A stretch of 64,000 nucleotides of DNA, from NCBI GenBank assembly GCA_022072165.1, contig JAJVIF010000001.1, forward strand, positions 186,001 to 250,000, read 5' to 3'. A program made the position numbers and the translations under genes. The DNA comes from a bacterium (GTDB taxonomy: Bacteria; JAJVIF01). The notes beneath the pieces were generated by a model. The model had not been told where the DNA came from and did no database searches. It saw only the letters and a program-made list of their open reading frames with translations. Shown one piece after another: positions 2,401-6,683 of this stretch. Every line of letters begins with the position of its first letter. Within the stretch, counting starts at the first letter, position 1.

Positions 2401-2518
2401 AGGGACCTTCAGTTCTACTCGCTGTCGAAGCCCGGGCCGGCTATTGATTCGACACAGCGTCGATGTAACTGGTGCAAAAAATCCAGAAAAAATCGCCGTT
2501 CTACGCATTTGCGAAAGC

Positions 2519-2546
2519 TTGCGACCCGTACGAGACTCCCTATAAT
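2519..2546 (+). promoter_or_regulatory. Sigma70-type promoter of the pilin-like gene
   Basis: TTGCGA (2519-2524), a 16-base spacer and a perfect TATAAT (2541-2546). It predicts transcription from about 2553 and an 87-base leader before the pilin ATG at 2640. Confidence 0.7.
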
Positions 2547-2639
2547 CAGCCTCGAAGTCAATGCGACTTCCCTCGCGTAACCCTCAGTTCACGCGCCTTT
2601 GCTCATCACGTCGTAAGACGAAACCTTGGAGAACTCTCC

Positions 2640-3161
2640 ATGCGCAACAATCGGGGTTTTACCCTGCTTGAGCTCCTGGTCGTGGCGTCGATCATCGCAA
2701 TCATCGCCGCGATCGCTATCCCGCAGCTCCTCAATGCGAGGCGGTCTGCCTGGGAGAACCGCGCCAAGCTGACCCTGCGCGCTCTGGGATCTTCCCAGCT
2801 CGCGTATCAGGATCAGAACCTGGACAAGAACTATGGCAACTGGAACGCCATGGTCGCCACCGACTATGTTCAGCAGGGCTACACCCGCACGAACATGATC
2901 GACAACTACTCCCTCGCGGTCTTCTACGCGAACCCCTCCACCCAGGTCAACGGCATCACTGCCTCTGACTCCAGCTTCACCATCGTTGCGGTCCCCCGCA
3001 ACAGCCGGAATCGCCTCCGCACCTTCGCGATCTGCGACGACCAGACCGTCCGCGTCGCGGATACCGGCGACTTCGTCCCGGTCCAGACCGGCGGCAACGG
3101 CCCCGGCGCGACCATCTCGGTCACCGGCGACCTCCCCTGCGTGTGGGAGCCCCTTCGCTAA
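2640..3161 (+). CDS. Type IV pilin-like prepilin
   Basis: A 173-residue prepilin. The N-terminus has a short charged leader ending in Gly followed by FTLLELL, the classic prepilin peptidase site with Glu at mature position 5, and then about 20 hydrophobic residues forming the N-terminal half of the pilin stalk helix. A head domain of about 135 residues follows. It should be inserted in the inner membrane, cut and N-methylated by a prepilin peptidase and assembled into a pilus or pseudopilus; no assembly genes are in the window. The ATG at 2640 is chosen because the prepilin leader starts there and a GGAG lies just upstream; the frame is open further upstream without signal. It has its own promoter and a strong terminator. 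Its head recurs in the next gene. Confidence 0.9.
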   Translation: MRNNRGFTLLELLVVASIIAIIAAIAIPQLLNARRSAWENRAKLTLRALGSSQLAYQDQNLDKNYGNWNAMVATDYVQQGYTRTNMIDNYSLAVFYANPSTQVNGITASDSSFTIVAVPRNSRNRLRTFAICDDQTVRVADTGDFVPVQTGGNGPGATISVTGDLPCVWEPLR

Positions 3162-3319: not shown

Positions 3320-4582
3320 ATGACTCGTTCGCTCTCACTTGGACTGATGCTTTGTGCCATCCTGGGACTTTGCACCGTGGGACAGCAACGTACCAGTGGG
3401 CTGGTGCTTGCCCATGCCGAGATTCCGGACCCTGGATACACCAGTCGGGCAGAATCCCAGGCCCTGGCACTCGCCCTGATGATGCACGACTACGGGGAGT
3501 TACGGCATGCCACTGGCCCGACGGACCCGACCTTCAATCTGGCCCCCTATTGGCCCCTGGACACCCACGGCAAGTTCTGGCGACAGGGCGAAGACTCCGA
3601 CATCATCCCTGGGGAGCCGCTGGTCCTGCGACGTCATTCCTGGTTGTACACCTACGTCCTCCCCGATGGGACTACGTTCTCGCCGTGGGAAATCACGCAG
3701 TACGCGGGGTTTGTGCCGGCAGGGGAAGAACCGCCGCTGTATAACATTCCGGTCGATGCGTTTCGTGCCCGGACACTCCTCCGTCCAGTGCAGGCCTGGG
3801 TAGTCGCACATCCTGGCGCTGCGGTCCCGTCCCTGGATGAGATCTGTCACGGGCTGGGACTGGCGCTGAATCCGTCATACCTGGGGGAAGTGGCAGGGGC
3901 GTTTGATCAGATCCGGGTGCTTCAGTTTGCAGAAGACTCCTGGCGTCAGGGCCTCTTTCTGTCGGTTGGCGAACGATCCTGGCTCTGGGAGATCGATCGG
4001 CTTCCTGCGATGCAGATGGGGGGGGTGACCCTGAAGCTCACCACCGATGGCGAGGCCATGCGGCGGGCCGCTCAGGGCCGGGAGTCTGAGAGCGCACTGC
4101 GGCAGCTGACCACCAGTGCCGCAGCGAACAGGCTGGCCTGGATGGATCGCAAGCACCAGGTGACGCTGGATAGTCGTCGCGAGACCCTGGAAAACCGGGC
4201 GAAACTGACCCTGCGGGCGCTCGGCTCCTCCCAGCTGGCCTATCAGGATCAGAACCTCAACCGACACTACGGGTCGTATGCCGCGCTGGTCGCGCATGAC
4301 TACATCCAGCATGGCTACACCCGCAGGAATCTGATCAATCTCTACTCGCTCGCGGTGTTCTACGCCAGTCCTGCAAGGATGGTGAATGGCCAACTGGGGG
4401 AGCCTTCACGCTTCACTATCGTTGCGCTTCCACAAGCACCTGGGCTGGGCTTGCGCACGTTCTCCATCAGTGAGGATCAGACTGTGCGGGTCGCGACCGA
4501 CTTCAGCCTCAACATTGTCCCGAATCGTGGAAACAACGTCCCGACCGGCGATGACCCCCGTCACTGGGAACCTCTGCGGTGA
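3320..4582 (+). CDS. Secreted protein with a C-terminal pilin-head domain
   Basis: A 420-residue protein with an N-terminal Sec signal peptide (charged MTR, then a hydrophobic core to about residue 25), an unrecognised domain of about 260 residues rich in Trp and Pro, and a C-terminal part (about residues 285-420) clearly homologous to the head of the pilin-like protein encoded just upstream. The shared block begins at ENRAKLTLRALG and runs on through SSQLAYQDQN, then YSLAVFYA, and both proteins end WEPLR. It lacks the prepilin cleavage site and the hydrophobic stalk helix, so it cannot enter a pilus in the usual way. It could cap, bind or mimic the pilus subunit. The start has the weak sequence GGAGG about 10 bases upstream. 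Function is unknown; the homology is directly visible. Confidence 0.85.
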   Translation: MTRSLSLGLMLCAILGLCTVGQQRTSGLVLAHAEIPDPGYTSRAESQALALALMMHDYGELRHATGPTDPTFNLAPYWPLDTHGKFWRQGEDSDIIPGEPLVLRRHSWLYTYVLPDGTTFSPWEITQYAGFVPAGEEPPLYNIPVDAFRARTLLRPVQAWVVAHPGAAVPSLDEICHGLGLALNPSYLGEVAGAFDQIRVLQFAEDSWRQGLFLSVGERSWLWEIDRLPAMQMGGVTLKLTTDGEAMRRAAQGRESESALRQLTTSAAANRLAWMDRKHQVTLDSRRETLENRAKLTLRALGSSQLAYQDQNLNRHYGSYAALVAHDYIQHGYTRRNLINLYSLAVFYASPARMVNGQLGEPSRFTIVALPQAPGLGLRTFSISEDQTVRVATDFSLNIVPNRGNNVPTGDDPRHWEPLR

Positions 4583-4787: not shown

Positions 4788-4815
4788 TTGACAGGACGCC
4801 TGAGTGTGGTATAAG
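4788..4815 (+). promoter_or_regulatory. Consensus promoter placing the start site at the ATG
   Basis: Perfect TTGACA (4788-4793), 16-base spacer, TG-n extended -10 TATAAG (4810-4815). The expected transcription start, about seven bases on, falls on or next to the ATG at 4822, so the mRNA should be leaderless. This is the best promoter match in the window. Confidence 0.85.
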
Positions 4816-4821
4816 TCAAGA

Positions 4822-5502
4822 ATGACCTACCGACCTACCGACCTACCGACCTACCGACCTACCGACCTACCGACCTTTAAGCACGGATTCAAGGCTTCGC
4901 TGCTCGGAGTCATCTATGGAGCCGTGCTAATCGTGAGTTGGTTCGCTATTCCATCTCCTTCCTACGCAACCAAGTGTGTCCCTCGGTATTGGAATGGCAG
5001 CATGAGCTCCAGGAGCAGCTATGGCAACTGCTCTGGCTCACACTACGCAGCCGTATCTGGAATCCAGTCGATCAGCATCCCCTACAATGGGAACGTTTCA
5101 ACCTACCAGGTCCAGTATGCGGTCCACTACTGTGGCTACAGCAGCAACCCCTGTTCCAGTGGGTTTAAAACCTGCTTTGAGGGCTGGGATAACGGGACTA
5201 CTTCGACACCTGGCTGGCAGTATGACTGCGATGGGGGCTGCTACAAGGTTCATGCCTACACTTGCTTCCCGTCAGGGTGGGATCCTTCTGACAGCAGTGA
5301 TGCCGAATATGAGTTCGACATCACGCATACAGGAGGTTACTACAATGGAGCGCATGTAACTGCGATTCAAAACACCATCATCGACTTCTGGCAAAATGGC
5401 GCTCGCAACGCCAGTAGCCCGGCCACCCCAAACCCGTACTATCAGATTTCCAGCAGTTATCCATGCAATCCAGCAGGGTATGACTGCGGAACCTGTCAGT
5501 AA
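4822..5502 (+). CDS. Secreted cysteine-rich protein, probably phase-variable
   Basis: A 226-residue protein. Codons 2-18 are built from an 8-bp tandem repeat and read TYRPTDLP twice plus one Thr. A signal peptide follows (basic KHGFK, hydrophobic core, cleavage probably after PSYA at about residue 50). The mature part has 11 cysteines and many Ser, Tyr, Gly and Asn residues, suggesting a disulfide-bonded exported or surface protein; I recognise no family. The ATG at 4822 is fixed by the promoter and by the absence of any in-frame Met between the repeat and the signal peptide. Because the repeat unit is not a multiple of three, gain or loss of one unit shifts the frame: one alternative frame stops at once at TAA just after the repeat, the other at 4928-4930. 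The gene is visibly AT-richer than its neighbours. The lipoprotein gene 58 bases downstream is probably co-transcribed. Confidence 0.8.
   Translation: MTYRPTDLPTYRPTDLPTFKHGFKASLLGVIYGAVLIVSWFAIPSPSYATKCVPRYWNGSMSSRSSYGNCSGSHYAAVSGIQSISIPYNGNVSTYQVQYAVHYCGYSSNPCSSGFKTCFEGWDNGTTSTPGWQYDCDGGCYKVHAYTCFPSGWDPSDSSDAEYEFDITHTGGYYNGAHVTAIQNTIIDFWQNGARNASSPATPNPYYQISSSYPCNPAGYDCGTCQ
4824..4876 (+). repeat. 8-bp tandem repeat, six copies plus a partial unit
   Basis: GACCTACC is repeated six times without change from 4824 to 4871, followed by GACCT. The repeat starts directly after the ATG of the secreted cysteine-rich protein. A non-triplet unit inside a coding region is the hallmark of simple-sequence contingency loci. 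Confidence 0.95.
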
Positions 5503-5560
5503 TCAGCCCGAACCTTGCCTCGACTCAGTCAACCTGCTACATCCTCTGAAGGAGACAGTC

Positions 5561-6586
5561 ATGAAAAGCCTGCACAAGATCATTCGGGGCTTCGCGGTTT
5601 GCCTTTGCATACTGGCTACCGCTGGTTGTGTGAAAGAGCCACCGGGACCTGCCACTACTGAGCGACTTGCCATTGGCGATCGCCACATTGCGACACAACC
5701 GGCAACGGGCTATGTTCCTCCCTGCAAGTCTCACTTTGAGTTTGGAGGAGTTGCTGCTTCACACTTGGGCACTGCGATTTTGATCGAAGCTGGGCGGCAT
5801 ACTGGCTCAGCTTCGTCTATCAGCGAGTTAAGCCCAGTCGAACTGTTCCCTGGGGCGTTCGGTGGATTCACACTGGCCACCGCAGGGTGTCCCGACGGAC
5901 GGAACTTCGTTTTGATCCAGCGAAATCCGCAGTCTGCTCCCGCTCTCACACGCGGAGTGAGCACAGAGCCATGTCAGATCGCTGGGTTTGACGGTTGTTC
6001 ACCTGTCGTTCCAGGTCGAGCATCCGCTGTCGAAGCTTACTTGGTGGTTGAGTCCGCGGAGTCAGACCCTGCATTGCTCGCCGCAGAGTTGAGCCGAACC
6101 GGTCAGGACTTGAATGGCCAGTATCTCGCCGAGCTACGGCATGTGTCACATGGCGCATGGACTCCCGAAGGTCTGGTGCATCGTGCGGTTGCGCCAGCCC
6201 AGGTCGGGGACAACATTGGCCTGGGTTACGTAGCGAAGTACCTTTCTGCATTCGCAGCCGATTGGCGTCGGCGTGAGCCAGAAGCCCCCTCGCCTCGTTC
6301 CCTGCCGGACTTCATGGCGAAGTTTGGTGCAGGGGGGGAACTGAGAAATCCCCTGACAAACGCGGTTATCCCGGCAGTGTCACTCGATCGGGCCGAGCCG
6401 GGGACATACACTGACTTGTCATCCGAGCATGGCCTCTTGCTGCTGCTGCATTACCAGGATGCGGAAGGAGGAGTGAGCAGTGTGCTGACGGGTTGCACGA
6501 CGGTGACCCCTGACCATGCCGACCCTCCCAGGCTTTTCGAAGTCCAGGAAGGCAAGCTCGTCGAGATCGGTCAGGCTTCAAGCTAA
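5561..6586 (+). CDS. Unrecognised lipoprotein, 341 aa
   Basis: Starts MKSLHKIIRG with a hydrophobic core and a good lipobox ending TAGC (Cys23), so the mature protein should be lipid-anchored. The body has several cysteines and no family I recognise. A C-terminal stretch (about residues 255-330) containing RNPLTN and PGTYTD faintly resembles the head regions of pseudopilin-like proteins, but this is weak. The ATG at 5561 has GAAGGAGA seven bases upstream; the open frame upstream of it lacks any start signal. It lies 58 bases after the phase-variable gene with no terminator between, and a strong terminator follows, so the two form a unit. If the upstream frame is switched off, transcriptional polarity could lower its expression; this is inference. 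Confidence 0.8.
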   Translation: MKSLHKIIRGFAVCLCILATAGCVKEPPGPATTERLAIGDRHIATQPATGYVPPCKSHFEFGGVAASHLGTAILIEAGRHTGSASSISELSPVELFPGAFGGFTLATAGCPDGRNFVLIQRNPQSAPALTRGVSTEPCQIAGFDGCSPVVPGRASAVEAYLVVESAESDPALLAAELSRTGQDLNGQYLAELRHVSHGAWTPEGLVHRAVAPAQVGDNIGLGYVAKYLSAFAADWRRREPEAPSPRSLPDFMAKFGAGGELRNPLTNAVIPAVSLDRAEPGTYTDLSSEHGLLLLLHYQDAEGGVSSVLTGCTTVTPDHADPPRLFEVQEGKLVEIGQASS

Positions 6587-6620
6587 TCGCCAGCAGGCAA
6601 ATTGCAGGAACGAGTAACAT

Positions 6621-6646
6621 AAGCGCTCCGCTCCGGAGCGCTTTTT
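6621..6646 (+). terminator. Rho-independent terminator
   Basis: AGCGCTCCG, loop CTC, CGGAGCGCT and four or more T residues close the two-gene unit at 4822-6586. Confidence 0.93.
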
Positions 6647-6683
6647 GAATAAAGGAGTGCTCGCTGACCTGCTTCGTGTAGAG

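Follow-up and report, generated by a model that had tools for sequence, protein, structure and literature searches.

Phase variation based on simple sequence repeats (SSRs) has been documented chiefly for host-adapted bacteria, among them Haemophilus, Neisseria, Campylobacter and Helicobacter, and frame-switching arrays in surface genes represent the classical arrangement. Octanucleotide SSRs of Haemophilus influenzae have been listed as candidate mediators (PMC2651432). In the same species, the (TA)9-11 tract between hifA and hifB has been proposed to alter the spacing of the -35 and -10 elements, thereby switching surface-protein expression, while heptanucleotide arrays in the promoter regions of hmw1A and hmw2A modulate expression (PMC2651432). 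In Beggiatoaceae, a single conserved heptamer, TAACTGA, which is associated with genes without functional bias, has been proposed to represent a set of regulator binding sites (PMC4679880).

The locus described here lies in a stretch of 64,000 nucleotides (the window) and resembles the in-frame SSR genes of Haemophilus and Neisseria, which harbour tetra-, penta-, hepta- or octanucleotide units, in that a non-triplet unit is located at the 5' end of the coding region, with two of three unit numbers being off. It differs from them in that the start codon, on an mRNA that is probably leaderless, lies partly within the array, and in that the encoded proteins match no Pfam family. Sister operons with (AG)n, (CT)n or (GT)n arrays follow the spacing principle of hifA/hifB, although the latter concerns one divergent pilin promoter, whereas the present lineage, which is unrelated, has at least nine such promoters within a single operon family, with three different dinucleotides immediately following TTGAC. 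Similarly, the 8-, 10-, 12- and 17-bp leader arrays of further sister operons are comparable to the longer-unit arrays of hmw1A/hmw2A, but the unit differs per operon and the array is positioned at or after the predicted transcription start. Short direct repeats near start codons in an uncultured bacterium are shared with Beggiatoaceae; however, the regulator-binding reading does not fit here because the units differ between loci. The literature searched on phase variation in uncultured bacteria yielded no match to this system. Although the principle is already known, nothing in the literature searched matches this lineage, its proteins, how many operons are involved or the mix of switch types within one family.

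The octamer array and operon of the window locus

The locus was shown to comprise a two-gene operon with the following features, all on the forward (+) strand:

4788-4815 (+), predicted promoter by direct reading: TTGACA (4788-4793), 16-bp spacer, TATAAG (4810-4815)
4793-4806 (+), alternative start GTG (4804-4806) with AGGA (4793-4796) 7 nt upstream, giving a 232-aa ORF (4804-5502)
4822-4824 (+), ATG start codon, 6 nt past the -10 element; repeat unit 1 starts on its G
4822-5502 (+), gene for a predicted secreted Cys-rich protein (226 aa, 11 Cys), from sequence, with paralogues in the genome and no Pfam family
4824-4876 (+), array (GACCTACC)6 + GACCT, detected by TRF, encoding (TYRPTDLP)2
4878-4880 (+), TAA, reached with 5, 8 or 11 units (off), by frame arithmetic
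4928-4930 (+), TAA, reached with 4, 7 or 10 units (off), by frame arithmetic
5561-6586 (+), lipoprotein gene (341 aa, lipobox LATAGC, AAGGAG at 5549-5554), the downstream gene of the operon, with paralogues at C1:0.81 Mb and C1:1.60 Mb and homologues elsewhere in the class
6621-6643 (+), intrinsic terminator hairpin and T run at the operon end (-17.2 kcal/mol, z -3.3)

The array, with a period of 8, 6.6 copies of GACCTACC and 100% matches, represents the strongest tandem array that TRF detected in the window. Six full units (4824-4871) are followed by the partial unit GACCT (4872-4876), and unit 1 begins inside the start codon. Pattern searching revealed the array to be single-copy across the 3.26-Mb genome, and two runs of an order-3 Markov simulation, over 1.27 Mb, produced no period-8 array. 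An SSR contingency locus is expected to possess a perfect array, well beyond chance length, for which a change in unit number alters translation or transcription. The GACCTACC array is perfect and well beyond chance length, and the effect of unit number would act through the frame at this locus and through placement in the spacer or leader at the sister loci. The array starts 9 nt past the last base of the -10 element, inside the ORF, and the window locus therefore does not meet the hifA-type requirement that the repeat lie between -35 and -10.

Translation of the window sequence with varied unit numbers demonstrated that the frame is open with 3, 6, 9 or 12 units, while 4, 5, 7, 8, 10 or 11 units lead to a stop after 16-46 codons. 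The gene as sequenced, with six units, is thus open ('on'). The frame through the array links the ATG with a complete signal peptide (signal-peptide-like N-terminus at ~4822-4968). The only in-frame standard starts 3' of the array are GTG codons at 4924 and 4933, both of which fall in the hydrophobic core of the signal peptide and lack a suitably positioned Shine-Dalgarno sequence; a CTG at 4900 is the sole further option. There is no start 3' of the array that would suit the signal peptide.

The -10 element is preceded by TG one base upstream, and the other repeat-bearing operons are headed by the same kind of TTGAC promoter. The built-in promoter scan did not list the window promoter, because TATAAG lacks the final T. 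As the ATG is located only 6 nt past the -10 element, the mRNA is predicted to be leaderless; a distance of 6-8 nt was also observed at C1:1587188, C1:1590683 and C2:427644. The alternative GTG at 4804 is in frame with the ATG, so that the array would still be coding and the switch logic unchanged.

An earlier reading, made without database searches (the sequence-only reading), had claimed a TTGACA/TATAAG promoter directly 5' of six perfect units plus a partial one, with two of three repeat numbers off through a TAA either right after the repeat or at 4928-4930; these claims held upon inspection of the hexamers, TRF analysis and frame arithmetic, respectively. Its placement of the array start at codon 2 failed, since the array starts on the G of the ATG. 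The claimed leaderless mRNA remains a prediction, with the same -10-to-ATG geometry recurring in three other family members, and the claimed polar effect on the lipoprotein, whose gene is located 58 bp behind the first gene and has its own AAGGAG, is still an inference.

For both window proteins no Pfam family scored above cut-off (with one sub-threshold chance hit), and ten sister proteins likewise had no Pfam match. Single-sequence structure prediction of the mature Cys-rich protein yielded no usable fold (pLDDT 36). Single-protein searches with the window proteins found no relatives outside their own genome, nor did a contig scan with the window protein reveal any.

Directly upstream of the operon, a type IV pilin-like gene (2472-3161) is followed by a longer secreted-protein gene (3320-4582), the C-terminal half of whose product repeats the pilin conserved region (ENRAKLTLRALGSSQLAYQDQN...), representing a partial duplication.

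Repeat-headed operons across the genome

At least 16 repeat-headed loci of the window type were identified in the genome. Each is built of a small secreted-protein gene followed by a lipoprotein gene (the second gene in 15/15 checked) and carries its own repeat, (AG)n, (CT)n, (GT)n or a unit of 8, 10, 12 or 17 bp, at the promoter, leader or start. The secreted products are mostly Cys-rich (11-19 Cys), and in many a CC pair follows shortly behind the signal peptide. Signal-peptide-like N-termini and lipoboxes are present in the sequences, while localisation at the surface or outside the cell is inferred only. Paralogous pairs with retained gene order were found at C1:0.81 Mb, where a perfect 12-bp x 5.3 array lies between TTGACT-17-TATCAT and the start, and at C1:1.60 Mb, beside which further secreted-protein/lipoprotein operons are located, two of them starting with TTGAC(GT)9 and TTGAC(GT)13.

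Dinucleotide arrays were catalogued by pattern search of the whole genome, and long-unit arrays only in a 1.27-Mb sample, which corresponds to 39% of the genome and was partly targeted at known loci. Setting aside period 3, this sample contained 16 perfect arrays, of which 15 are located at promoters, leaders or starts of the family: nine dinucleotide arrays, the window array and arrays of 8, 10, 10, 12 and 17 bp. One dinucleotide locus outside the sample brings the total to 16 operons. The exception is a GC-rich perfect 20-bp x 5.3 array (L039:4246-4351), which is not at a secreted-protein promoter.

In the 3.26-Mb genome, three (GT) and seven (AG) arrays of at least 7 units were detected, at the following positions:

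L033:5072, L197:8937, L151:15475, L202:7645 and L204:6969, dinucleotide arrays of at least 7 units
L207:8531, L172:1501, L013:684, L035:7189 and L037:9754, dinucleotide arrays of at least 7 units

All ten (AG/CT or GT/AC) are located ahead of genes for secreted proteins or lipoproteins; nine come immediately after TTGAC and fill the -35/-10 spacer, the placement that a hifA-type switch requires, and at the measured TTGAC rate the chance of nine in ten is ~4e-24. The remaining one, (GT)10 at C4:114753, is without a clear -35 element, a point against the switching model. Dinucleotide runs displayed a bimodal length distribution, with 5 units off promoters, 7-13 units at promoters and 6 units never observed. 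The inferred spacers of the nine TTGAC-linked loci measure 17, 17, 17, 17, 16, 19, 21, 21 and 25 bp, and the promoter at C2:315474 is an exact TTGACT-17-TATAAT. Assignment of the -10 elements was consensus-based and several hexamers match only 3-4 of six positions; spacer lengths and on/off calls are therefore provisional. With this reservation, the range of 16-25 bp suggests that some promoters are on and others off. Paralogue pairs differ in array length, (GT)9 versus (GT)13 and (AG)7 versus (AG)8, which is indirect evidence as to length variation.

In five sister operons the array (8, 10, 10, 12 and 17 bp) belongs to the leader, 5' of the inferred start codon and at or beyond the point where transcription is predicted to start. 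A clearly coding, frame-switching array was found at the window locus alone. At most loci the repeat units differ in both sequence and length, and the loci accordingly do not share one unit in the manner of Beggiatoaceae, which argues that they are not one shared binding site; a CTACC string recurs in the units at two of them. Family members lacking an array mostly occupy the second position of an operon. A long array is, however, also absent from three members that have their own promoter (C1:1.598 Mb, L033:3370 and L140:1579), which counts against reading the family as a switching system.

Several other repeats were recorded. On the minus strand at L050:4373-4442, the 17-bp unit CATGCAAAGGAGCAGCC x 4.1 precedes a Cys-rich secreted protein, each unit carrying a Shine-Dalgarno-like AAAGGAG and an ATG, which together form a ladder of alternative starts. 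Outside the operon family, an imperfect 78-bp x 1.9 repeat bearing the motif CCAAGTCTGAAGACTTGG / CCAGGTCTTGAGACCTGG was observed at L013:5214-5363. Coding triplet runs (GAC, GCG, GGC), G/C homopolymers of 9-11 and the 20-bp array at L039:4246, possibly a REP-like element, were set aside as unrelated.

Proposed phase variation and competing explanations

The window array is likely to be a contingency locus within a multi-locus phase-variation system, a conclusion inferred from sequence alone, without reads, a second strain or expression data. Strand slippage would add or remove 8-bp units, and, since 8 is not divisible by 3, two out of every three unit numbers are out of frame with the signal peptide. 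The lipoprotein would probably be lost together with the Cys-rich protein through polarity. Across the family of at least 16 operons with their own repeats, three modes of switching are proposed: dinucleotides would change the -35/-10 spacing of promoters, units of 8, 10, 12 and 17 bp would change the leader, and the window locus would change its reading frame. Slippage would move the TTGAC-linked promoters between active and inactive spacing, and the observed spread of spacers is as expected under this model. The arrays, their positions and frames, the operon structure, the family and the tracts at homologous loci in related families are established from the sequence; slippage in cells, the resulting change in expression, surface location and protein function are inferences. 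No array contains a mismatch, which is suggestive of active slippage.

The sequence-only reading had taken the locus to be an on/off-switched surface protein, on the established premise that non-triplet repeats in surface-protein genes are contingency loci in Haemophilus, Neisseria and others. This proposal is supported as the best fit and is strengthened by the genome-wide operon set and the homologues in the class, while length variation is still an inference. The same reading had treated the locus as single; it is instead one member of a regulon, most other members of which would switch their promoter or leader rather than their frame.

The best surviving alternative, which is considered unlikely, holds that the array is a 5'-leader element tuning mRNA level or translation, with translation starting downstream of it. 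The five sister operons with leader arrays upstream of the inferred start support this possibility. Against it, the only downstream in-frame starts are the poorly placed GTG codons and the CTG described above, and the frame through the array joins the ATG to an entire signal peptide.

Less credible still, and regarded as very unlikely, is a stable repeat with a structural or regulatory role but no phase variation, either as a (TYRPTDLP)n extension or as a protein- or RNA-binding array comparable to TAACTGA of Beggiatoaceae. In favour of this, the Beggiatoaceae direct repeats are located just 5' of start codons and were proposed as sites for a post-transcriptional regulator (PMC4679880), and two loci share the CTACC string in their units. 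However, Beggiatoaceae share one heptamer with no pattern of gene function, whereas here units of 2, 8, 10, 12 and 17 bp are associated with one operon class, and dinucleotides in promoter spacers are implausible as binding arrays.

A neutral microsatellite or assembly artefact without effect on expression is all but excluded: a metagenome-derived consensus may err in repeats and no read support is at hand, but the arrays are tied to promoters and starts of one operon type far beyond chance, simulated sequence yields none, and homologous loci of two further families in the class have tracts at equivalent places.

If the phase-variation reading is correct, a regulon of at least 16 repeat-headed surface operons in an undescribed lineage would represent an independent origin of such a system, and a large, previously unseen bet-hedging system for the cell surface of an uncultured bacterium. 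It would also predict that this surface is under strong fluctuating selection, be it by phage, protists, a host or neighbours. The family would amount to a natural experiment, with a single operon type being switched alternatively by promoter spacing, by leader length or by reading frame, and the predicted phase variation is directly testable on existing long reads.

Related loci in the class

The class consists of four genomes, and, by DXS, the closest named record to the organism is an unclassified bacterium (57% identity); the organism represents an undescribed lineage. A MutS homologue is encoded in the genome. MutS would be expected to damp 2-bp slippage, while 8-bp loops usually escape it. 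The remaining three genomes of the class contain no (AG) arrays of at least 7 units, and a search of 143 other bacterial genomes gave no TTGAC(AG)n.

Relatives in the class were reached by profile searches only, which identified homologues of the operon family in two other families. In G001, a lipoprotein gene is homologous to the second gene of the window operon (3.5e-17 for one target), and its promoter, TTGA(C)14GTGTTATACT, contains C14 in the spacer (TTGACC-16-TATACT; L225:1109-1122, G001:C122:5577). G002 encodes the secreted-protein/lipoprotein pair; in one copy, codons 4-7 of the secreted-protein gene contain a C9 tract. The placement of slippage-prone tracts at the operon thus seems to be conserved, while the type of tract is not, on the evidence of two loci in draft genomes only.

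A bolder reading, towards which the evidence leans by a modest margin, is that of a whole-genome combinatorial system in which ~20-25 operons (an extrapolated number), each encoding a secreted Cys-rich protein and a lipoprotein, would switch independently. The switch position (promoter spacer, leader or frame) would be conserved as a principle across three or more families of the class, with the repeat being replaced (dinucleotide, poly-C or octamer).

Two further observations were made in G002. On one contig, (GT)6 adjoins TATAAT (L263:175), with no gene assignable. Dense arrays of the octamers AACCTACC / AACCTGCT / TAACTTAC are located at L177:14833-15008 and L181:191-1575 and are mostly intergenic; the unit AACCTACC is one base apart from the window unit GACCTACC and was treated as a separate matter.
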